A program made the translations under genes and the position numbers. From an uncultured cyanobacterium (GTDB lineage Bacteria > Cyanobacteriota > Cyanobacteriia > Thermostichales > Thermostichaceae), in assembly GCA_937944885.1 (NCBI GenBank), contig CALFBB010000025.1:1-64000 (forward strand): a stretch of DNA of 64,000 nucleotides, in the 5' to 3' direction. Shown here piece after piece: positions 17,994-60,515 of this stretch (its first letter is position 1; every line of letters begins with the position of its first letter). A model generated the notes under the pieces. It was not told the origin of the DNA. It ran no database searches and worked only from the letters and a program-made list of their open reading frames with translations.

Positions 17994-18545
17994 GGAAACC
18001 TCTAGGCTGGACTGTGCTTATGGTGACATACTCAGACCCTAGGGGTAGAGCGCGAGCTTCTTCAGTTTTCGCGCCTTTGGCACGCCGGCGCCAGCGACCT
18101 TGCTTGTGCCTTACAGCATGTGGGAGTTGAGCTGTTTGCGTGGCTCAGCAATACTGCCCCCCGGCGGGCAAGTATTGACCGGGCAGCGGTTTACTTCCCA
18201 CCCATCCAAGCATCCGCCAGTAGCCAGTTGTACTGATGCTGCTCCATCTCTAGCCGGTAACTCATGGGAGACTGCTCTTGGTCAGTTGGCTGCCATGGCT
18301 ACGGGCAGACGAGTACCCCCTGAGTTTGCAGAACGGATAAACAAGTTCTACGGGGAGGCAGGGCTTGGCCATGAGTCCTACTTCATCGCCTGACGGTGTC
18401 CGTTTTGGAAGGGACATTGACCAGCAGGACCCCCCTGATGCGGGCCCAAGGTACGACTTTCATCCCAAAGCTAGACAGGGCGCTTAGCTGCCCGCCAATC
18501 AAGCTAAGATAGCGAGGCTGCCCATTCTGCAATGGCTAGCTATCT
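17994..18545. other. Non-coding region between ggt and purN with unassigned open frames
   Basis: About 550 bases contain no gene I can name. Two plus-strand open frames have gene-like composition. One, about 18025-18238, has no good start and reads ELLQFSRLWHAGASDL, then HVGVELFAWLSN. The other, 18100-18393, ends RRVPPEFAERINKFYGEAGL. Neither has a ribosome binding site or a recognised homologue by eye. They may be a decayed gene or chance. The purN promoter should lie in the last 150 bases. Confidence 0.4.
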
Positions 18546-48981: not shown

Positions 48982-49213
48982 TGGGGGGAGAGCGTCAAAA
49001 GTTGACCTAGAGGATCTGATGAGCATCCGCAGAAGGGGTGCTCCTTAGGGGATCCCTCCAATCTCAAGACAGTTTCTCCTGCTCAAGCAGCGCCTGAACG
49101 CTTTTGCCAAAAGATATTTGAGCAAAGGGTTGACATCTGCCCAAGTTTGGGATGGCATCGGGGAGACTGGCGGCATAATAGTTGTATCTCGCTGGACTTT
49201 AGGCAGGGATCCC

Positions 49214-50356
49214 ATGCAGGGGAAACTACAAGAAATTGATATCCGCAGTATCCTTCAGTTAATTGAGTTGGGCCAGCGCACAGGGGAGCTCTTTGTAGAA
49301 GCCAGCCCCTCTGCCTATTGGTTTGTTTTTTTCCTCAACGGGCGAATTATCTATGCTTCCGAAACCGAGGGGAACATTACCCGTTTAAGGGACTACCTAC
49401 ACCGGTTCAAGGTAGAGGATGCCCTTGACCAAATTCAAATCCCCCACAAGGCCGCCGTTAACGCTCCTGAGTACAACCGCCTCTGGGCTTTGCTGGAAAA
49501 CCACAAGCTCAACCCCAACCAAGGGAAACAAATCCTCCTGGGCATGGTACGGGAAGTTCTCTTCGATCTACTTAGCCTCCACTATGGCTCTTTCATTTTC
49601 GAAGCCGGATCCCCTCTGGCGCCGCAACTGACCACCTTTCCTGTCACCCCTCTGCTCACCGAGATCATGACGCAGGTGCAGGAATGGAAAAAGTTACACC
49701 CCTACATCCAGGCCCCCAACCAGGCCCCTACCATCCTCAACCCCCTTCCCCTCCAGCAAAGCCTGCCTGCCCCTGTTTTCAAAGCACTAAGTGAATGGTC
49801 GAACGGCAAAACCAGCATCCGCCAGATGGGACGCTACCTAGGCCGAGATACCCTCACCGTGGCGAAGGCCATCTATCCCTATGTTCAGCAGGGCGCCATT
49901 CAACTGTCTGAACCCCTATTGTTGGTTGAGCCAAAGCTTAGCCGGCCCTCTAGCCTAAGTGGCAAACCCAGCCACATCCTCTGCATCGACGATGCCATGA
50001 CCATCCAGAAAACCGTGGAGTTCATTTTGCAAAACGAAGGCTACCAAGTCACCACCATTGGCAATCCCCTCAAAGCCCTAGGACAGGTGTTTCTTCTCAA
50101 CCCCGACATGATCCTCTGCGATGTAGCCATGCCCAAACTGGATGGATATGAGCTGTGTGCCATGTTGCGTAAATCCAACCAATTTCGTGAAACCCCCATG
50201 GTTATGCTGACCGGTAAAGATGGCTTCACCGATCGCATCAAAGCCCGTATGGCTGGCGCCAATGAGTTTCTCAACAAACCCTTCACGGAGAAGGAATTGC
50301 TGACCATTGTCGAGTCCTATGTCGGTCCTCCCCCGAAAGGTGGCAGCAAAACCTAG
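49214..50356 (+). CDS. pilG: PatA/PilG-type response regulator (DUF4388-REC)
   Basis: First gene of the chemosensory operon, 380 residues. The N-terminal PATAN/DUF4388 domain reads MQGKLQEIDIRSILQLIELG, RTGELFVEASPSAYWFVFFL. The C-terminal receiver (about 255-375) has CIDDAMTIQKTVEF, acceptor Asp in LCDVAMPKLDGYEL, Thr in MVMLTGKDGFTDR, and Lys in FLNKPFTEKEL. In cyanobacteria this class links CheA phosphorylation to the type IV pilus for phototaxis. ATG 49214 gives the family start; the open frame from TTG 49118 adds 32 unrelated residues. Confidence 0.9.
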   Translation: MQGKLQEIDIRSILQLIELGQRTGELFVEASPSAYWFVFFLNGRIIYASETEGNITRLRDYLHRFKVEDALDQIQIPHKAAVNAPEYNRLWALLENHKLNPNQGKQILLGMVREVLFDLLSLHYGSFIFEAGSPLAPQLTTFPVTPLLTEIMTQVQEWKKLHPYIQAPNQAPTILNPLPLQQSLPAPVFKALSEWSNGKTSIRQMGRYLGRDTLTVAKAIYPYVQQGAIQLSEPLLLVEPKLSRPSSLSGKPSHILCIDDAMTIQKTVEFILQNEGYQVTTIGNPLKALGQVFLLNPDMILCDVAMPKLDGYELCAMLRKSNQFRETPMVMLTGKDGFTDRIKARMAGANEFLNKPFTEKELLTIVESYVGPPPKGGSKT

Positions 50357-50526
50357 GTGTTGGGTAGCTCAATCTTGCCAATGCTGGACAGAAAGAGAAC
50401 TCCTCGAAACAATGGGGGTAGCACAGCCAACCTAGAGTTGGGGAGCTAGGGTGAAGTCCAAGAACCCATCTTAGCCCCTGCGGCAGTTATTGGGGGTGCA
50501 AGAAAAACAATAGGAGCAAGGCAACA

Positions 50527-50904
50527 ATGACCAAAGTGCTGGTAGTGGATGACAACCGTACTTACCTGGAGACCATTTCCAGTTTACTTTCCGAGAATGG
50601 TTTGGAAGTCTTAACTGCCATGGACGGCGTAGAAGCCATGGATGTTATCCGGCAGCAGAGGCCTGATCTGGTGGTGCTAGACATTGTCATGCCCCGCATG
50701 AATGGCTACGAGGTCTGCCGAGAAGTGAAGGGGGATGACAGTACCAAGCACATTCGCATTGTTGTCTGCTCTACCAAAGATCAAGCCTTTGATATCGAGT
50801 GGGCCAAGCGCAATCAGGCGGACGCCTATGTTACCAAACCCTTCAAGCCTCAGGAGTTGTTGGCCACCATCAAAAATCAGTTGCGGGAGATCCAGCAGAA
50901 ATGA
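50527..50904 (+). CDS. pilH: CheY-like receiver protein PilH (first copy)
   Basis: A 125-residue stand-alone receiver: VLVVDDNRTYLETISSLL, acceptor Asp in LVVLDIVMPRMNGYEVCREV, Ser in VVCSTKDQAFDIE, and Lys in YVTKPFKPQELL. It acts as a mobile phosphate carrier or sink for the PilL kinase. The ATG is preceded by AGGAG. Its stop overlaps the start of a second, similar receiver gene (ATGA). The receiver core sequence around the phospho-site is nearly identical at the DNA level to the next gene, indicating a tandem duplication. Confidence 0.92.
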   Translation: MTKVLVVDDNRTYLETISSLLSENGLEVLTAMDGVEAMDVIRQQRPDLVVLDIVMPRMNGYEVCREVKGDDSTKHIRIVVCSTKDQAFDIEWAKRNQADAYVTKPFKPQELLATIKNQLREIQQK

Positions 50905-51266
50905 GTCGTATTTTGGTTGTAGAAGATAGCCAATCTCAGCGGGAGATGATCAGCAACTTGCTGAAGCAGAGCGGCTTAGAGGTGATCGTTGTCGCAGATG
51001 GCCTGGAAGCTCTAGAAGCCGTGCAGAGCAACAAGCCGGATTTGATCGTGCTGGATATTGTCATGCCCCGCATGAATGGCTACGAGGTCTGCCGCCGCCT
51101 CAAGGCTGATCCCCTGACCCAGAAGACACCGATTGTCATGTGTTCCTCGAAGGGAGAAGAGTTTGATCGCTACTGGGGGATGCGACAGGGGGCTGATGCT
51201 TATATCGCCAAACCCTTTCAGCCCCAAGAATTAGTGGGTACGATCAAGCAATTATTGAGAGGTTAA
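50901..51266 (+). CDS. CheY-like receiver protein PilH (second, tandem copy)
   Basis: A 121-residue receiver: ILVVEDSQSQREMISNLLKQ, acceptor Asp in LIVLDIVMPRMNGYEVCRRL, Ser/Lys in VMCSSKGEEFDRYW, and YIAKPFQPQELV. The start ATG 50901 overlaps the preceding stop. It shares with the first copy about 35 nearly identical bases around the Asp, while its N-terminus and helix 4-5 face differ, so the two could address different partners. I recall only one pilH in the Synechocystis operon. Confidence 0.9.
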   Translation: MSRILVVEDSQSQREMISNLLKQSGLEVIVVADGLEALEAVQSNKPDLIVLDIVMPRMNGYEVCRRLKADPLTQKTPIVMCSSKGEEFDRYWGMRQGADAYIAKPFQPQELVGTIKQLLRG

Positions 51267-51332
51267 ATTGAGGGGTTAGGACCTGCCCGTTACTGATTCT
51301 TCGCGGTGAGAGCTAAAAGGCACACTATGCTC

Positions 51333-51351
51333 TACGGAGAAGGGTAGAAGC
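51333..51351 (+). repeat. Minor dispersed repeat, copy upstream of pilI
   Basis: TACGGAGAAGGGTAGAAGC matches 31304-31325 apart from a 3-base gap. It lies in the 124-base gap between the second receiver gene and pilI. Confidence 0.5.
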
Positions 51352-51390
51352 GGGCCGCTGATACGCATCAAACCACTACGCGGGGGCGTC

Positions 51391-51909
51391 ATGCTGGGGG
51401 ATCTGGATTTACTCATGGGGGATGAGACCCAAGAACTTCAGGAAATGGAGGCCCCAGAAGGGGAGCTGTTTCTAAAGTTCAAGGTGATGACTGGAGAGCA
51501 ATTTGCCCTGCCGGCGGTTGCGGTGGTGGAGGTGATGAGTATTGGGCCTGAGAAGATCACGCCCATGCCCAATGTGGCGCCTGTTTTGCTGGGTACTCTG
51601 AATTTGCGGGGTGAAATCATTTGGGTTGCTGATCTGGGGCAGTTTCTGGGAATCAGTCCACCCTTGAATCTCGATCGCACTGAGCTGCCGGTGATAGCGG
51701 TGATGGATCAACAAGATTTGCTCATGGGTCTTGCTGTGGATTTAATTGTAGGCATGGAGTGGCTGAAGACCGAATTGGTGCGGCCTGTGCTTAAAGCTCC
51801 GGAATCTATGGCTCCCTTTTTGCGGGGGGAATGGACGGCAGTCGAAACAGGGACAACCTTGCCATTGCTGGATCAGTCAGCCATCCTGAGATCTAATCGT
51901 TGGGGTTGA
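51391..51909 (+). CDS. pilI: CheW-like coupling protein PilI
   Basis: A 172-residue CheW-fold protein that couples the PilJ receptor to the PilL kinase. Typical features are FLKFKVMTGEQFALPAVAVV, EVMSIGPEKITPMPNVAPVL, LGTLNLRGEIIWVADLGQFL, and VDLIVGMEWL. An acidic N-terminal extension of about 25 residues precedes the domain. ATG start at 51391. The next long gene is 320 bases away; a small open frame with a strong ribosome binding site fills part of that gap. Confidence 0.9.
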   Translation: MLGDLDLLMGDETQELQEMEAPEGELFLKFKVMTGEQFALPAVAVVEVMSIGPEKITPMPNVAPVLLGTLNLRGEIIWVADLGQFLGISPPLNLDRTELPVIAVMDQQDLLMGLAVDLIVGMEWLKTELVRPVLKAPESMAPFLRGEWTAVETGTTLPLLDQSAILRSNRWG

Positions 51910-51987
51910 TAAAGTCTTAGCGGGAAGAGGATGTACAGTTCCTAACAGTGATCTGAATCCAATTCGTTTTGGATGGAGGAGATTGAG

Positions 51988-52131
51988 ATGACCTTTTGGG
52001 AATCCTTTAGGGATACTTACTCGGTTGTTCAGGTTACTTTCTCCTATAGCTCCCCAGCAAGTGTTGAAGAGGTGGCAAAAAGCCAATGGCTTTTTTGCAC
52101 AGTAGAGGTTACAGAACACTCGGGGAGATAA
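51988..52131 (+). CDS. Possible small protein between pilI and pilJ
   Basis: A 47-codon open frame starts at ATG 51988, six bases after a near-perfect Shine-Dalgarno GGAGGAG (51975-51981). A second in-frame ATG at 51973 would add five residues but lies before that site. The peptide begins MTFWESFRDTYSVVQVTFSY and ends VEVTEHSGR: soluble, with mixed beta-type pattern and one Cys. I know no homologue. It is co-oriented within the pil operon. The strong ribosome binding site is the only evidence; it could instead be a leader peptide for pilJ. Confidence 0.4.
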   Translation: MTFWESFRDTYSVVQVTFSYSSPASVEEVAKSQWLFCTVEVTEHSGR

Positions 52132-52229
52132 CTTGTAAAGACTACCAGAGGACAGGAGTGTTGAGGAAAGTTCCGTTGAATCCGTTTTAGGGCGCAAACA
52201 GAGGTAACGCAGCAGTGAAGGGAGGATCC

Positions 52230-54656
52230 ATGGTTTCGAGCGCGAACAAAGACTACACCGATGCGGTGGCCGCCTTTTGGCAAGGAGATTATGTTCGGGC
52301 GGTGCGGTTGTTTAACCAGGTGCTCGCTGCTCAGCCGCAGGATACTGCTGTCAAGTTGTTGCTGGCTTCTGCGCAGAGGCAAGCGGGTCAGTTGCTAGAG
52401 GCCCGCCACACCTACAATACTATTTTGCAAACCTCCAGCAGTCCGGATGAGTTGGAGTCGGCACGCAAAGGTTTGGATGAGCTGTTGCAAATAGCACCGG
52501 AGTTGGCGGATATGCCCTACCCGGCAGAAACCCAGAGCCTGCAACAGGAGAGCTTCCCCAGGTCTTCCCAAGCAGAGGGTTTTGATCTTGATTCGGATAG
52601 GTTTCCGGAAGTGGATCCCTTCCCAGTGCTTGAGGGGAGGCAGGAGCTAGGGGAGAACCCTCTTGAGTCAGATCCTTTTGCGGATCCCTTTGGGGATTCT
52701 TTTGAGACTGGGTTACAGATGGAGGATGCTCTGGATCCCTTTGGGGATTCTTTTGAGACTGGGTTACAGATGGAGGATGCTCCGGATCCCTTTGCTGACT
52801 CTTCTGAAACAGGATTTTTGTTGACACCGCCTGTTGTCAAGAGCACACAGGATCAAACTGCCGATGACGACTTTGCCTTTCTCGACGAGTTTGATCAAGA
52901 TCCCTTCGAGACGATGGAAAGTGAGTCCATCACTCAGGTGGCTGACAGTGAGAATTTCCTGGATGAAATGGGATTTTCTCTGCCTTCTTTCCCAGATGAG
53001 GGATCCCTAGAGGAGGGCTTACCCACAGAGTTGGCTGCCCCAATGAGTGAGCCGATTCCTGCTCCGGAAGAAGACACAGCTAGCCCCAGCACAACTCTGT
53101 TTGACTTTGATGAGCTCGACAGTTTGGATCGAGAGATTGCCGAGATGGAGGGAGGTGAGCAGACTCCTTTCTACAGCGAGGCCGGTGATATGCCCTCAAT
53201 GGCTGGAGTCAGTGTAGGGATGCCCCCCGCTTCCGGAACATCTACTGGGCCAGGCAGAGCCTTCTCCAGTCTCTCCGCTCGTCCGATTGCAGATCGGCAG
53301 TTGGCTATGGCCCTGATTCAGGGGGCTGTTAGTTTGGCTGCTGGGCTGGTGATTGGCCTCGGGATCCCTGCTGGTGGGGGTGCTCGTCTAATTGGTGGCG
53401 TGATTGGGGGTGGAGTGATCGGTACTGGGGCAGGAGTCCTGCTAGGTGCTAGCTATGCCAAGCAACTTCGTGCCAGCACCAACGAATTGGCCAGCCACTT
53501 TGCCAGTTTGGCCCAAGGGGATTACTCGGTACGGGCCAGAGCCGGTGCCAATGACGAGTTGGGGCGCCTAGCGGACAGTTTCAACCAAATGGTGAGTGCG
53601 ATTGAGGCCAACTTCAGCGAGCTGAATCAGCGGGCTGCTGAACAGGGACAGGCCAAGGAAGATCTGCAGCGACAGGTGATTCGCCTGTTGGATGATGTAG
53701 AGGGTGCTGCCCGAGGTGACCTGACGGTACGGGCGGAGGTGACTGCTGACGTACTCGGTGCTGTCGCCGACTCCTTTAACCTCACCATCCGCAGCCTGCG
53801 GGATATTGTTAGCCAGGTGAAACGGGCCGCTGCTGCTGTGAACGACGCGGCTTTGCAAAATGAAGACTCTGCTCGCAGTCTTTCTGCAGATGCTTTGCGG
53901 CAGGCGGAGGATATTTCCACCGCTCTTAACTCTATTCAAGTGATGACGGATTCTATTCAAGAGGTGGCCAGTAATGCTCGCGAGGCAACCAATGTAACCG
54001 CTCAGGCAACAGAAGCCGCCTCCCGCGGTGGAGAAGCCGTGGATCGCACCGTGAGTGGCATTTTGGAGATCCGTGAAACCGTAGCTGAGACTACGCGCAA
54101 GGTGAAGCGATTGGCGGAATCTTCTCAGGAAATTTCCAAGATCGTCGCCTTGATTTCTCAGATTGCCTCCCGTACCAACCTGCTGGCCTTGAACGCCAGT
54201 ATTGAGGCTGCCCGTGCCGGAGAATCGGGACGGGGCTTTGCTATTGTGGCGGATGAGGTACGTCAGCTAGCAGACCGGGCGGCAAAAGCTTCTAAGGAGA
54301 TTGAGCAGATCGTACTGCAGATCCAGTCGGAGACCGGCAACGTGATGACCGCCATGGAGGAAGGGACCCAGCTGGTTATCGAGGGCACACGACGGGCGGA
54401 GCAGGCTAAGAACAGTCTGGATGAGATCATCGACGTCAGTCGACGGATCGATGTGTTGGTGCGGGCTATTTCTCAAGCCACCGTGCAACAGACGGAAACT
54501 TCCCGTTCGGTGGCCCAGGTGATGCAATCGGTGGAGTTGACCGCCAACGAGACCTCGAAGGAGGCTCAGAAGGTAGCCACCTCGCTGCAACAGTTGGTAA
54601 GCATTGCCCGTGAGCTGCAAACTTCGGTGGGTCGTTTCCGGGTTGGGGATGAATGA
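52230..54656 (+). CDS. pilJ: Methyl-accepting chemotaxis protein PilJ, TPR-TM-HAMP-MCP
   Basis: An 808-residue chemoreceptor. Residues 1-90 resemble TPR repeats ([37 protein letters not shown]). About 100-330 is an acidic spacer with two perfect 17-residue repeats ([16 protein letters not shown] from 152). A Gly-rich hydrophobic hairpin at 357-405 forms the membrane part. Two HAMP-like segments follow ([40 protein letters not shown]). The signalling tip is [40 protein letters not shown] at about 642-685. No periplasmic sensor domain exists, so input must be cytoplasmic. ATG 52230 has GGAGG upstream. Confidence 0.93.
52683..52784 (+). repeat. 51-bp tandem duplication within pilJ
   Basis: Two almost identical 51-bp units (differing by one base near the end), plus a partial, diverged third, encode [16 protein letters not shown] plus Leu or Pro. 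Each begins with a GGATCC site. It lengthens the acidic linker without changing frame. Confidence 0.9.
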
Positions 54657-54845: not shown

Positions 54846-57800
54846 ATGAATGAAGAAGCACAGAAGCGAATCCTGAGTTATTTCATTGAAGAAGCCCGCG
54901 ATCACCTGACAACAATTGAACAGGGGTTGCTCAACCTGCGGGACAATATGAACGACCCGGAGCTGATCAATGAGTTGTTTCGGGCCGCCCACTCCATCAA
55001 GGGGGGATCCGCTATGCTTGGCCTCACCAGCATCCAGCGGACGGCTCACCGGATGGAGGATTTTTTCAATGTTTTTCGCTCCAACCCCGGTAGAGTGCCG
55101 GTGGATCAGCATCTAGAAACCCTGCTGTTGCGGGCATTTGACGGCCTGTCACTGCTTTTAGACGAAATGCAAAGCCCGCGCGGTCTGACGGAAGAAGTCA
55201 GCCGTACAACCCTAGCGGAATTGGAGCCTGTTTTTCAAGAAACCGAAAGGCACATTCAGAACCTTCTCGGCGAGGGATCCGTTTCCACCTCAACCCCAGC
55301 TCCTAAGGTTGCCGCAGCCCGTACCGCCCAACAGGATATGGCCGAGGTGGTACCCCAACTGCTGCGTCAGATGTTGGAGCTATTCAAACAGCGGGATCAA
55401 CCGGATATCCGCGAGCGATTGCTGCAAGTGAACAACAGCTTGGCCGAGATCGGCCAGACCCATGGCCTCTCCGGCTGGCAGCAGCTTACCGAAACGGTAG
55501 GGCAAGCCATTCAAAACCCCGACACAGATCTGCGCAACTTAGCTTTGGTTGCTCTCCGGGACTTGAAACAAGGGCAGCAGCTGATCCTGGCCGGTCAACC
55601 CCAACAGGTGACTGTTTCTCCAGAGTTGCAAGAGCTGGCTCGACCGGCAGCCCCTAGCGCTGATCCTCTGGAGGTGCTGGTGCAACAGCAGATCCCGCCT
55701 CTGTTGCGCCAGATGTTGGATCTGTTCAAACGCTTCGACGACCCGGCCACCCGACCGGCACTGCAGAGCGTAGCGCGATCTCTGCAGGAGCTAGGACAGT
55801 CCTCAGGCTTGGACTTAGGGGGTTGGACCTCTCTAACCGGTCTAATTGGGGAGCTTTTGGCGGATCTCGGCCAGGATCTGCGTCAGCTGGCCCTACCGGT
55901 GCTGCGGGATCTCAAGCAAGCCCACCAGCTGTTGAGCAGTGGCAGAGCTAGCAGTATCGAACCTTCTGCTGAGCTACTGGCTTTCCGGCCTGTGCCGGTA
56001 ACCTCTGAGGAGCCAGAAGTTCTCCCCGACGTTGACCTCGGCCTGACAGAATCTGAACCTGAAGGGGAGCCGGAGCCTCTGTTCCCGGAACCTGAGCCTG
56101 CTCCGCAAGAAGAGTGGGCCGCAGCCGGGATCCCTGCAGAAGATGGTTTTGGTTCGGATCTGAGCTGGGAACCTGAGTCTTTACCGGAAGAAACCTCCTA
56201 CGCGCCATCCTCAGACTGGGATTTGGCTGCAGAGACTACATTGTCGCCAAGCGAGAGTTCAGCAGGGGATTTGTGGGTGGAGCAACCCTCTGCTGCAGAG
56301 TCAGAATGGACCTGGGAAGAGGGCACCGACAACCTGTTCACTCCAGACATGGAGGATGCCAGTTTGGATTGGAGCGGGTCGGATGCGGCTGAAGCTGGGG
56401 CAGCTGAAGCTGGGGAGGAATGGACTCTAGAAAGCTCTGTAGCAAGTGAAGCTGAGGAGCTGTGGGGGAATTGGGATCCCTCCTTAGATGCAAACTGGAC
56501 CACAACCTCAGCCAATCGCGATAGCGGGACGGAGTTCTTACCGGATCAAGAACCGGAAGCCAGCGTTGGCCAAGAAGAGACCCTGGAAGAGGACTTAGCC
56601 TCCTGCGAAAGCTTTGCGCCTACCCCCTTGCGCTTGGAAGAGGAAGCCTCTAGCGCCTTTGATGAACTGTTTGCCAATGCCGAAGAGCTTTCTAGCATTG
56701 AAGAGCCTCCTCTCGATCTGCTTGCTCCCCCTGAGTCTTTCCCAGAAGATTTCGAGGATCTCAGTCAACAACCGGAGGAGGTGAAAGCAGAGGAGGATTT
56801 GGTGGATCTCTTTGCAGAGGTGATGGATGAAGCGGTAGCGGAGCCTCTGCCAGCGGAATCCACAGAGCCAGGGTGGGCTGAAGATCTCAGTCAGCTTTGG
56901 AATTTTTCTCCATCCGCCGAAGTAGAAGCACTGTCCCCTGCATCAGAGCCTGCTGCTGAGGAGGTGGACTCATCTGCGTTGGATTTCCTCACCCATTCCG
57001 AGCCAGCGCCTGCCCCTGGACTGACCCCCGAGGGAACCGCAGTCGAGGACACTTTTGATCTGTGGATGGGTGAGGTGCCGGATTTTACTCTCGCAGCTGA
57101 GGAGGAAGAGACTGTTCCATCCTTGGCCGATCTGTTATCAGAATCCATGGAACTGGGTTCTGCGGAAGGGGCCACTGAGGAAGCAGAGCGGGCAGATTCG
57201 GATGGGCTAGACTTTACCCTTGCGGAGTTTGGAGCTGACCTTTGGGGAGTGGAGCCCTCAGCCTTTGAATCAGATCTTGAAAAAGATCTTGGAAATGTTG
57301 CCCCAGACTTTTCGGCCGAACCTGCTCCTGAGCCGGGTCGGGATGATCTTTCTCCTGCCGCCGATCGAGCCGACTTGGAGGATTTGGCCTTTGATTTCAA
57401 TTTCTCAGAAGCGGCTGAGCCGGCGGAGTTCTCCAATATTCTGGCTTTGGAGGGTGAACAGGAGAGTCTAGAGCAGCTATTGGCAGGGGAGGTGGAGCTC
57501 ACCAGCTCAGAGACAGCAGAGTCTGCCCAGTTTGCCGACTTCTCAGCAGATGAGTCTGAGGAGCCTTTTCCCAAATTGGATGAGCTTGTTGCAGCAGCAG
57601 ACAGTCTCTCCGAGGTCCCCATTGAAGAATTTTCCTTTGCCCCCGACTCAATGTCGCTATCCCTCGCAGCAGAGACGGAAGCGGAGCTTAGTTTTGCCGA
57701 TCTCTTTTCCGGTGATGAGGAGACAAGCACAGAAACTGCTCTCGAGGTGCCTTCACCAGAACTGTCACAATTGCTTGAGGACTGGGCTTGGAACGAAGCG

Positions 57801-60515
57801 GGATCCCCAGAAGTTCCCGAACCGGCCAGTACCGGCGATGCTGACTGGGGCTTGCTAGAGGAACTCTTCCCAGCTCAAGAAGAGCTGGAGGATCTGTCTC
57901 TAGAGCCGCAAGCCACAGACCTAGGGGGCATCGCTGCTTCTACTGAAGCTTCGTTCAGCTATCTCGACGCTCTATTTACGCATGAGTCGGATACCGAAGG
58001 ATTGAATTTGGAGGCCAATCGCACCCTCTCAGCCGTAGACACGGATGGAGACGGACAAGTTGATCTGGAGGAATTGAGTCAGTTCTTCACCGAAGGAGAA
58101 ATTGTTACCAGCTTTGATAAAAAGATGAGCAGCCCCGCCGAAGCACCTTTGCCTGAAGCGGAGCCATCCTCTGCCCCCCTAGAGGTAGATCTCGAAAGTC
58201 AGCTGGCCGAACTCTTTGCTGAGGACGACCTCTTTGCCCGTCAGCCTAGCCCAGTAGAAGAAGCAGAGACGGAAATCTTGGATTCTGGCCCCCGTTTGGA
58301 TGACTTGGCTGCTCTGTTCGACCAAGGAGAGCCGACGGCCACCCTTGAGGAAAGGATTCCTGAAACAGAATCTGTTGTGACCAGCCAGGCCGGAAGTGAT
58401 TTTGAGGCCCAACTGGAATCGCTGCTAGGAGATTTGGATACGGCTCCCAAAGCTGCGGTTGCTCCCTCTGCACCGACTCCCCCCGCTGCTGCCCCACCAG
58501 TTACTGCTCCGGTCTCGACAGCTTCTGGCAGCCGGCGCACCCCTGCCTTCAGTAACCCAGTGATGCGGGTCGAGGTGCGACACCTGGATTCCATCAACAA
58601 CTTGGTGGGAGAGCTGGTGGTTATCCGCAACAGCATGGAACAAAACCAAACTCGTCTGCGCCAGTTTCTGGATGGCCTTTTGGGACGAGTCCAGCAGTTG
58701 GGGGATTTGGGCCAGCAGATGCGGGATCAGTACGACCGCTCTTTGCTGGAATCAGCTTTGTTCTCCAGCCGTAGCTCTACCTACAGCGGTGCAGTCACCG
58801 TTGGCTCCACTCGATATGGAGAAGACAGAGTCAGTGGATCCCGCAGAGGTGGGCACTCCTCCGGTCAGGAGTTTGACAAGTTGGAGATGGATCAGTTTAC
58901 AGCCTTCCACGCTTTGGCCCAAGAGATTATCGAGCTGATCGTGCGGGTGAGGGAGTCTTCTTCGGATATTGAGTTTGCGGTAGATGAGGCTGAGCAGATC
59001 ACCCGTCAATTTCGTCAGGTGACCACTCAGCTGCAGGAGGGCCTAAACCGGGCGCGCATGGTGCCCTTCTCACAAATTGCCGACCGGCTGCCGCGGGCCA
59101 TTCGGGATCTCTCCATCAAGACCGGTAAACAAGCCAACCTGGTGGTGGAAGGACGGGATACCCTGATTGACAAGGCCATTCTGGAGGAACTCTACGACCC
59201 GATGACCCACCTGGTGAACAACGCCTTAGTCCATGGGATCGAGTCTCCGGAAGAGCGCCGCCGTGCCGGCAAGCCTGTGGAGGGCAAGATCATCATCAAA
59301 GCCTTCTATCAGGGCAACCAAACCATCATAGTTGTCTCGGATGATGGAGCAGGGATCCCGGTGGAAAAAGTGAAGGCCAAAGCCCAACGGTTGGGGCTGC
59401 TTTCTGAGCAAGCGGATGAAGATGAGGTATTTAATGTCCTCTTTAGTCCTGGTTTTAGCAGCCGGGATACAGCGGACGATCTGGCCGGACGAGGGGTGGG
59501 GTTGGATGTAGTGCGCCGCAACATCACCGAACTGCGGGGCAGCATTCAAGTGGATTCTGTGCGCGGTAAAGGCACCACCTTCACCATTCGCCTGCCCCTC
59601 ACCCTCAGTATTTCCAAGGCCATGGTCTGTGTCAGTGACAAAGCTCTGATTGCTTTCCCTCTAGATGGGGTGGAGGAGATGCTGGATATTCCTGCCGATG
59701 AAGTTCAAGTAGATGAGCAAGGGCGGCCTTCCATTCCCTGGCGGGATCAGCGCTTGTATTTTCAGCCTCTGTCGAACTTGTTGGCCTACAGTCGCAGCCA
59801 CAATCGCAGCCGTTCTGAGGTTTACAGCATTAGCCAAGACGAGGGCATTATTCCCATCGTTGTCTTGCAAAGTGCTGGCCAGTATGTCGCCCTACAGGTG
59901 GACAGCTTTGTGGAAGAGCAAGAAATCGTGATTAAGCAACTGCGCGGGCCGGTGCCGAAGCCACCGGGCATTTCGGGAGCAACGGTGTTGGGGAACGGAC
60001 GGGTGCTGCCGATTGCTGACATCATCGAACTGGTGGATATGGCCCATGGTCGGCGTCGCGATCTCAACCGCTTCTGGCTGGATCACCGAGGTGAGGAACC
60101 GACAGCGGAAGAGGTGCACCAGACCACGGTGCTGATCGTGGATGACTCGATTACGGTGCGGGAGCTGCTTTCTATATCCTTCCAGAAGGTAGGTTACCGG
60201 GTGGAACAAGCCCGGGATGGCCAAGATGCTTGGGAAAAGCTGCGCGGGGGACTGCCCTGCGACCTGATCTTCTGCGATATTGAAATGCCGCGCATGGATG
60301 GGCTGGAGCTGTTAGCCCGTCTGCGGGAGGACAACAATCTCAAGCATGTACCGATTGCCATGCTCACCTCCCGTGGGGCCGAGCGTCACCGCCAAACAGC
60401 GCGGGAATTGGGGGCAACGGCCTACTTTACCAAGCCTTACCTGGAGGAAGAACTGCTCAGTGCTGCTGCCCGTATGTTGCAGGGAGAACAGTTGTTGACC
60501 GGGGCGACTTCCTAG
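54846..60515 (+). CDS. pilL: CheA-type hybrid histidine kinase PilL with EF-hand in linker
   Basis: A 1889-residue kinase for pilus-based motility. Hpt at about 1-110 with phospho-His H49 (ELFRAAHSIKGGSAMLGL). Two copies of a helical module at about 168-264 and 283-380 (QLLRQMLELFKQ / LLRQMLDLFKRF; LALVALRDLKQGQQL / LALPVLRDLKQAHQL). An acidic low-complexity linker spans about 385-1235, with a canonical EF-hand loop DTDGDGQVDLEE at 1065-1076. Dimerisation from about 1240. HATPase with HLVNNALVHGIESPEERRRAG, VSDDGAGIPVEKV and GRGVGLDVV. CheW-like regulatory domain. C-terminal receiver from about 1762 (LIVDDSITVREL, FCDIEMPRMDGLEL, YFTKPYLEEE). Confidence 0.93.
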   Translation: MNEEAQKRILSYFIEEARDHLTTIEQGLLNLRDNMNDPELINELFRAAHSIKGGSAMLGLTSIQRTAHRMEDFFNVFRSNPGRVPVDQHLETLLLRAFDGLSLLLDEMQSPRGLTEEVSRTTLAELEPVFQETERHIQNLLGEGSVSTSTPAPKVAAARTAQQDMAEVVPQLLRQMLELFKQRDQPDIRERLLQVNNSLAEIGQTHGLSGWQQLTETVGQAIQNPDTDLRNLALVALRDLKQGQQLILAGQPQQVTVSPELQELARPAAPSADPLEVLVQQQIPPLLRQMLDLFKRFDDPATRPALQSVARSLQELGQSSGLDLGGWTSLTGLIGELLADLGQDLRQLALPVLRDLKQAHQLLSSGRASSIEPSAELLAFRPVPVTSEEPEVLPDVDLGLTESEPEGEPEPLFPEPEPAPQEEWAAAGIPAEDGFGSDLSWEPESLPEETSYAPSSDWDLAAETTLSPSESSAGDLWVEQPSAAESEWTWEEGTDNLFTPDMEDASLDWSGSDAAEAGAAEAGEEWTLESSVASEAEELWGNWDPSLDANWTTTSANRDSGTEFLPDQEPEASVGQEETLEEDLASCESFAPTPLRLEEEASSAFDELFANAEELSSIEEPPLDLLAPPESFPEDFEDLSQQPEEVKAEEDLVDLFAEVMDEAVAEPLPAESTEPGWAEDLSQLWNFSPSAEVEALSPASEPAAEEVDSSALDFLTHSEPAPAPGLTPEGTAVEDTFDLWMGEVPDFTLAAEEEETVPSLADLLSESMELGSAEGATEEAERADSDGLDFTLAEFGADLWGVEPSAFESDLEKDLGNVAPDFSAEPAPEPGRDDLSPAADRADLEDLAFDFNFSEAAEPAEFSNILALEGEQESLEQLLAGEVELTSSETAESAQFADFSADESEEPFPKLDELVAAADSLSEVPIEEFSFAPDSMSLSLAAETEAELSFADLFSGDEETSTETALEVPSPELSQLLEDWAWNEAGSPEVPEPASTGDADWGLLEELFPAQEELEDLSLEPQATDLGGIAASTEASFSYLDALFTHESDTEGLNLEANRTLSAVDTDGDGQVDLEELSQFFTEGEIVTSFDKKMSSPAEAPLPEAEPSSAPLEVDLESQLAELFAEDDLFARQPSPVEEAETEILDSGPRLDDLAALFDQGEPTATLEERIPETESVVTSQAGSDFEAQLESLLGDLDTAPKAAVAPSAPTPPAAAPPVTAPVSTASGSRRTPAFSNPVMRVEVRHLDSINNLVGELVVIRNSMEQNQTRLRQFLDGLLGRVQQLGDLGQQMRDQYDRSLLESALFSSRSSTYSGAVTVGSTRYGEDRVSGSRRGGHSSGQEFDKLEMDQFTAFHALAQEIIELIVRVRESSSDIEFAVDEAEQITRQFRQVTTQLQEGLNRARMVPFSQIADRLPRAIRDLSIKTGKQANLVVEGRDTLIDKAILEELYDPMTHLVNNALVHGIESPEERRRAGKPVEGKIIIKAFYQGNQTIIVVSDDGAGIPVEKVKAKAQRLGLLSEQADEDEVFNVLFSPGFSSRDTADDLAGRGVGLDVVRRNITELRGSIQVDSVRGKGTTFTIRLPLTLSISKAMVCVSDKALIAFPLDGVEEMLDIPADEVQVDEQGRPSIPWRDQRLYFQPLSNLLAYSRSHNRSRSEVYSISQDEGIIPIVVLQSAGQYVALQVDSFVEEQEIVIKQLRGPVPKPPGISGATVLGNGRVLPIADIIELVDMAHGRRRDLNRFWLDHRGEEPTAEEVHQTTVLIVDDSITVRELLSISFQKVGYRVEQARDGQDAWEKLRGGLPCDLIFCDIEMPRMDGLELLARLREDNNLKHVPIAMLTSRGAERHRQTARELGATAYFTKPYLEEELLSAAARMLQGEQLLTGATS

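Follow-up and report, generated by a model that had tools for sequence, protein, structure and literature searches.

A putative F-hand-like calcium loop in the linker of a cyanobacterial PilL kinase and its distribution among relatives

To our knowledge, CheA kinases are taken to receive input through receptors only. The CheA proteins of the Tfp class (PilL, ChpA) combine an Hpt domain, a long unstructured region, H-kinase_dim, HATPase_c and CheW domains and a receiver domain, and are encoded in pil clusters; the auxiliary domains in the published survey of CheA proteins are P2, CheY-like and CheC/CheX (PMC10782961). EF-hand loops are known from quite different proteins. Calmodulin-type EF-hands display the ligands of a 12-residue loop, Gly in position 6, a hydrophobic residue in position 8, Glu in position 12 and a hydrophobic exit helix. 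The F-hand of dockerins consists of a calcium loop and an exit helix only; dockerins are extracellular, contain two F-hand repeats and usually have Asp in loop position 12. EF-hands normally function in pairs (PMC3997525). In filamentous cyanobacteria, CSE (Ca2+ Sensor EF-hand), a small, free-standing protein containing two EF-hands, has been proposed to be a cellular Ca2+ sensor (PMC7065334).

The window, i.e., the whole stretch of 64,000 nucleotides analyzed here, encodes a Tfp-type CheA kinase, PilL (1889 aa; 54846..60515; all features described are on the + strand), which is the last gene of a pil chemosensory cluster. The remainder of the cluster (49118..54656) encodes, according to Pfam, a DUF4388-receiver protein (PatA/PilG-like), two CheY-like proteins, CheW and a TPR-HAMP-MCP protein (PilJ-like). 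The assignment of PilL to the Tfp class is based both on this neighborhood (PilG/H, CheW and MCP) and on its Pfam domains, namely Hpt (residues 9-92, 54870..55121; PF01627, E=3.6e-18), H-kinase_dim (residues 1239-1294), HATPase_c, CheW and Response_reg, with the kinase core and receiver occupying residues 1239-1873 (58560..60464). What sets this protein apart from the described members of the class is an EF-hand-like loop. According to the original prediction, no CheA with an EF-hand was known, and indeed the survey of 13,673 CheA proteins names none: the word EF-hand is absent from its main text, although a survey of this kind could miss a single short loop scoring below the cut-off (PMC10782961). 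A search of the open-access literature also found no report of such a kinase.

The loop and its surroundings in the PilL linker

The acidic low-complexity linker of PilL, delineated by composition, spans residues about 385-1236 (55998..58553), in agreement with the length of about 850 residues given in the original prediction; Pfam finds in it the EF-hand-like loop and otherwise very weak matches. Glutamate and aspartate account for 15% and 8%, respectively, of PilL residues 131-1232. Judging by its residues, PilL carries a genuine single F-hand-like loop of the calcium type, that is, an EF-hand loop with an exiting helix. The canonical 12-residue loop, DTDGDGQVDLEE (residues 1065-1076, 58038..58073), was identified by translation and Pfam. 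D1, D3, D5, G6, V8, D9 and E12 are all present and the PROSITE EF-hand pattern is satisfied, as was read originally from the letters. The EF-hand_5 model matches residues 1060-1080 with 22.4 bits (E=7.6e-5), below the cut-off of 25.9, in the whole-protein Pfam scan, and reaches 28.0 bits at the loop, above this cut-off, in a six-frame genome-wide scan; EF-hand_1 yields 19.3 bits in the whole-protein scan. This is the sole EF-hand-like match in the protein, so that the loop stands alone, as had been claimed, and a second hand for pairing is absent. The best phmmer alignments of the segment are to EF-hands of solved calmodulin-type proteins, including the fourth hand of calmodulin, the loop of which is a close match (the E values down to 1e-9 reflect a score summed over several hands). 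A Foldseek search with the low-confidence AF2 model of the loop segment gave no match.

Of the helical flanks originally proposed for the loop, the exit side is kept in seven genomes and the entering side is not conserved: NRTLSAV is replaced in a relative from another genus (G006) by FSPSSPRSAV, with its prolines. The AF2 single-sequence model places helices 1057-1063 (58014..58034; not conserved in G006) and 1074-1082 on the two sides of the loop at low confidence (pLDDT about 52). Compared with calmodulin-type EF-hands, with which it shares the loop ligands, Gly6, hydrophobic residue 8, Glu12 and the hydrophobic exit helix, the PilL element has one hand and an unconserved entering helix and is located in a disordered linker. 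With dockerins, PilL shares the combination of a calcium-type loop and an exit helix, but it is cytosolic, has Glu in position 12 and contains a single copy where dockerins have two. CSE is likewise a cyanobacterial protein of the EF-hand type, and differs in being a small stand-alone protein with two hands. A further parallel comes from the same lineage, where a transaldolase (L100; G000:C12, about 18130-18258) has a C-terminal EF-hand pair, also a graft on a cytosolic protein; in contrast to PilL, these are two adjacent hands with helices, and the pair is present in 6/6 scanned members of the genus, whether their PilL loop is intact or broken.

D, E and G are common in the linker, and the loose PROSITE pattern also matches, by chance, four other, unrelated orthologue linkers, so that this pattern alone is weak evidence and a chance resemblance has to be considered. 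The strict loop, D-x-[DN]-G-[DN]-G-x-[ILV]-xxx-E and then a hydrophobic residue, argues against chance: 20,000 shuffles of this linker did not produce it once, and when the linkers of 47 orthologues were simulated with a Markov model, it came up in 0.01% (about 1e-4). A looser canonical loop appeared in 0.075% of the shuffles and in 1.5% of the simulated linkers.

The linkers are rich in short modules of the LxxLF type: the 47 linkers together contain 211 instances of L[DE].L[FLW] compared to 32 expected from shuffles, an about sevenfold excess. Around the loop, the motif count yields LDALF at residue 1040 (57963..57977), LAELF at residue 1120 (58203..58217) and LESLL at residue 1190 (58413..58427), and LAALF at residue 1154 (58305..58319) lies inside the stretch that is best conserved across seven genomes. 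The exit half of the loop, VDLEELSQF (residues 1072-1080, 58059..58085), is itself a module of this kind, LSQFF in LEELSQFF being a looser instance, and is kept as VDL(D/E)ELS(Q/R)F in 7/7 genomes; because this module is common to all seven, the calcium loop appears to be an addition upstream of it. The same facts allow another interpretation, namely that the conserved element is a docking module, VDLEELSQFF, preceded by DTDGDGQ as an N-terminal capping or spacer turn, with no calcium switch operating in the cell. This interpretation is in line with the membership of VDLEELSQFF in the over-represented module set, with the about equal conservation of LDDLAALFD, which has no calcium loop, with the lack of an entering helix and a partner hand, with the D/G-rich character of DTDGDGQ, shared by much of the acidic linker, and with the loss of the loop in three of the seven genomes that keep the exit half.

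Conservation and loss of the loop among relatives

The distribution of the loop rests on the seven genomes that keep this linker (n=7), namely the genome of the window (G000), five congeners (G001-G005) and G006, from another genus of the same family. All nine genomes of the order were searched, and a search of GTDB r220 contigs for additional relatives returned G003 alone, already in the set. The loop is intact in 4/7 of these family members: besides the loop of G000 itself, G005 and G002 share DADGDGQVDLDE and G006 carries DTDGDGQVDLDE. The pattern-found canonical loops of G000, G005, G002 and G006 score 28.0, 25.9, 25.5 and 25.3 bits genome-wide, and EF-hand Pfam models match 4/47 orthologue linkers. 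The loop is absent from 38 further cyanobacterial orthologues and from G008, of the same order; none of the 20 CheA paralogues from these genomes contains such a loop, and a search of 291 cyanobacterial genomes with the 31-aa segment detected nothing clearly related outside the family. Weak matches in G005 and G001, inspected as possible donor proteins, are FG-GAP/VCBS-like repeat proteins and were dismissed.

In the other three congeners, the loop is broken by three different indels: G001 has SAMDGEVDLDE, G004 has SAMDSDSQVDLDE (DSDSQVDLDE), and G003 has an eight-residue insertion after DADG, LDADGGRASGAELSGQVDLDE. Sequencing errors are an unlikely cause in all of these, considering that the G001 and G004 genomes each consist of a single contig and that the frame is intact in all three. 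The broken genomes form one clade in the kinase-core tree (support 98/99), with the intact ones outside, and G006 groups with G007 (88/84; G007 partly aligned), in which the loop segment between two neighboring modules is missing, as read by eye. The simplest history would place the loop in the family ancestor, with subsequent loss in the broken clade and in G007.

Where the loop persists, it appears to be constrained. Between G000 and G006, it shows 8 synonymous and 1 non-synonymous differences in 12 codons, which rules out a recent exchange between these two genomes. Its pN is 0.035, compared to 0.116 for the kinase core and 0.479 for the rest of the compared linker, at saturated synonymous sites between G000 and G006; the loop comprises about 8 synonymous sites, so that the counts are small. 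The 13-residue segment SAVDTDGDGQVDL, which contains the loop, is the longest identical run among the 378 alignable linker residues. The low pN, below that of the core, and the position in the longest identical linker run indicate that the loop itself has been under purifying selection across two genera. This conservation against saturated synonymous change largely refutes chance resemblance, which we regard as highly improbable. It also weighs against the docking module with a mere capping turn: the ligand residues are exactly conserved between the two genera, and a capping turn needs no joint retention of D1, D3, D5, G6 and E12. We therefore consider that interpretation possible but rather doubtful.

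The expectation that the 12 positions would be conserved and the linker would not thus holds between G000 and G006 and fails in 3/5 congeners that keep the linker. Relatives with the linker present and the loop destroyed, the observation set beforehand as a refutation of the original prediction, do exist (G001, G003 and G004). Within the broken clade, VDLDELS(Q/R)F is retained while the first half of the loop is drifting, with pN values between members of about 0.26-0.43. Because these three congeners have an otherwise similar PilL with an unusable loop, the loop must be considered dispensable. Taken at the level of sequence, the motif is genuine and selected, yet dispensable in close relatives.

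Possible calcium input to pilus control

The explanation that appears best, and that we rate as an even call, is that an F-hand-like calcium loop was grafted onto a docking module of the linker in a restricted lineage and was lost repeatedly, and that Ca2+ orders this module. The loop would have arisen, or would have been grafted, just upstream of an acidic LxxLF module within the disordered PilL linker of the family ancestor. Most likely, it would bind Ca2+; the occupied loop might then cap and order the adjoining LEELSQFF helix, and the ordered helix could change the docking of that single module. Calcium would thereby have a local and modulatory influence on pilus control, possibly with an effect on phosphorylation, without being central to catalysis by the kinase. 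In keeping with such an input, the photo-orientation of Synechocystis is Ca2+-dependent (Moon 2004, as quoted in PMC7076178), and free Ca2+ in Anabaena responds to light-to-dark shifts (PMC7065334). Binding of Ca2+ by the PilL loop is plausible; control of the kinase by calcium through the loop is hypothetical, and because three sister species broke the loop in three ways, any such control would be optional and lineage-specific.

A stronger version, the one hypothesized originally, would make PilL a full calcium sensor: bound Ca2+ would act directly on autophosphorylation or on the transfer from Hpt to kinase, and would in this way set phototaxis or pilus output. The location of the loop in a motility kinase, its strong conservation wherever it is intact and the effects of calcium on cyanobacterial motility (PMC7076178, PMC4284465) are compatible with such a role. 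Nevertheless, we find it unlikely, given that three congeners have a broken loop, that G007, G008 and the 38 other orthologues have none, and that the site is single and unpaired. Moreover, Synechocystis PilL consists of two proteins, pilL-N and pilL-C (PMC7076178), so that the linker is split, and linker length varies widely among the other orthologues; for these reasons, a setting of the distance between Hpt and kinase, as suggested originally, is unlikely as a core function.

Returning to the grafted loop, its affinity for Ca2+ would matter. In Anabaena, free Ca2+ rises from about 0.2 to 4 uM upon a light-to-dark shift (PMC7065334). Fairly tight binding would be demanded at such concentrations. 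A lone EF-hand usually binds weakly, and therefore pairing within the CheA dimer would be a route to the required affinity: the loops of the two chains might pair, each supplying the second EF-hand that is missing in one chain. An elaborate form of this scheme, which we consider quite improbable, is that the dimer loops pair at micromolar Ca2+, reorganize the LxxLF modules and thereby let the calcium transients of light-dark changes switch the output to pili or phototaxis; if this were true, the sister species without the loop would be a natural loss-of-function series. The link between calcium and motility is known from physiology, and a named receptor for this link was not found in the open-access literature; a selected calcium loop within a CheA would connect cyanobacterial calcium transients directly to pilus motility. 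In any case, the sister species that kept the loop and those that broke it provide a natural comparison series for a possible calcium input to PilL.

Additional features of PilL and the adjacent MCP

Between the Hpt domain and the acidic linker, PilL contains two tandem repeats of ~100 aa, for which no Pfam family was matched. Repeat 1 (residues 165-263, 55338..55634) is predicted to form a four-helix bundle (AF2, pLDDT 90.9), and repeat 2 (residues 275-379, 55668..55982) is 46% identical to it. The bundle resembles CheA P1/Hpt (TM up to 0.74, yet with a Foldseek E of about 4-5), and N or R occupies, by eye, the expected phospho-His position, so that these are probably pseudo-Hpt domains. Sequence related to the repeats is found in many cyanobacterial PilL.

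In the draft G006 (L034, 1229-3554), the N-terminal half of pilL shows frame changes and a second Hpt-like start (MTEAQRRILG) in a different frame, and in G007 (L035) the kinase core is interrupted; both cases could reflect assembly error or real splitting. The PilJ-like MCP encoded upstream of pilL (52215-54656) has an N-terminal TPR and contains near-identical tandem repeats within an acidic stretch preceding HAMP.
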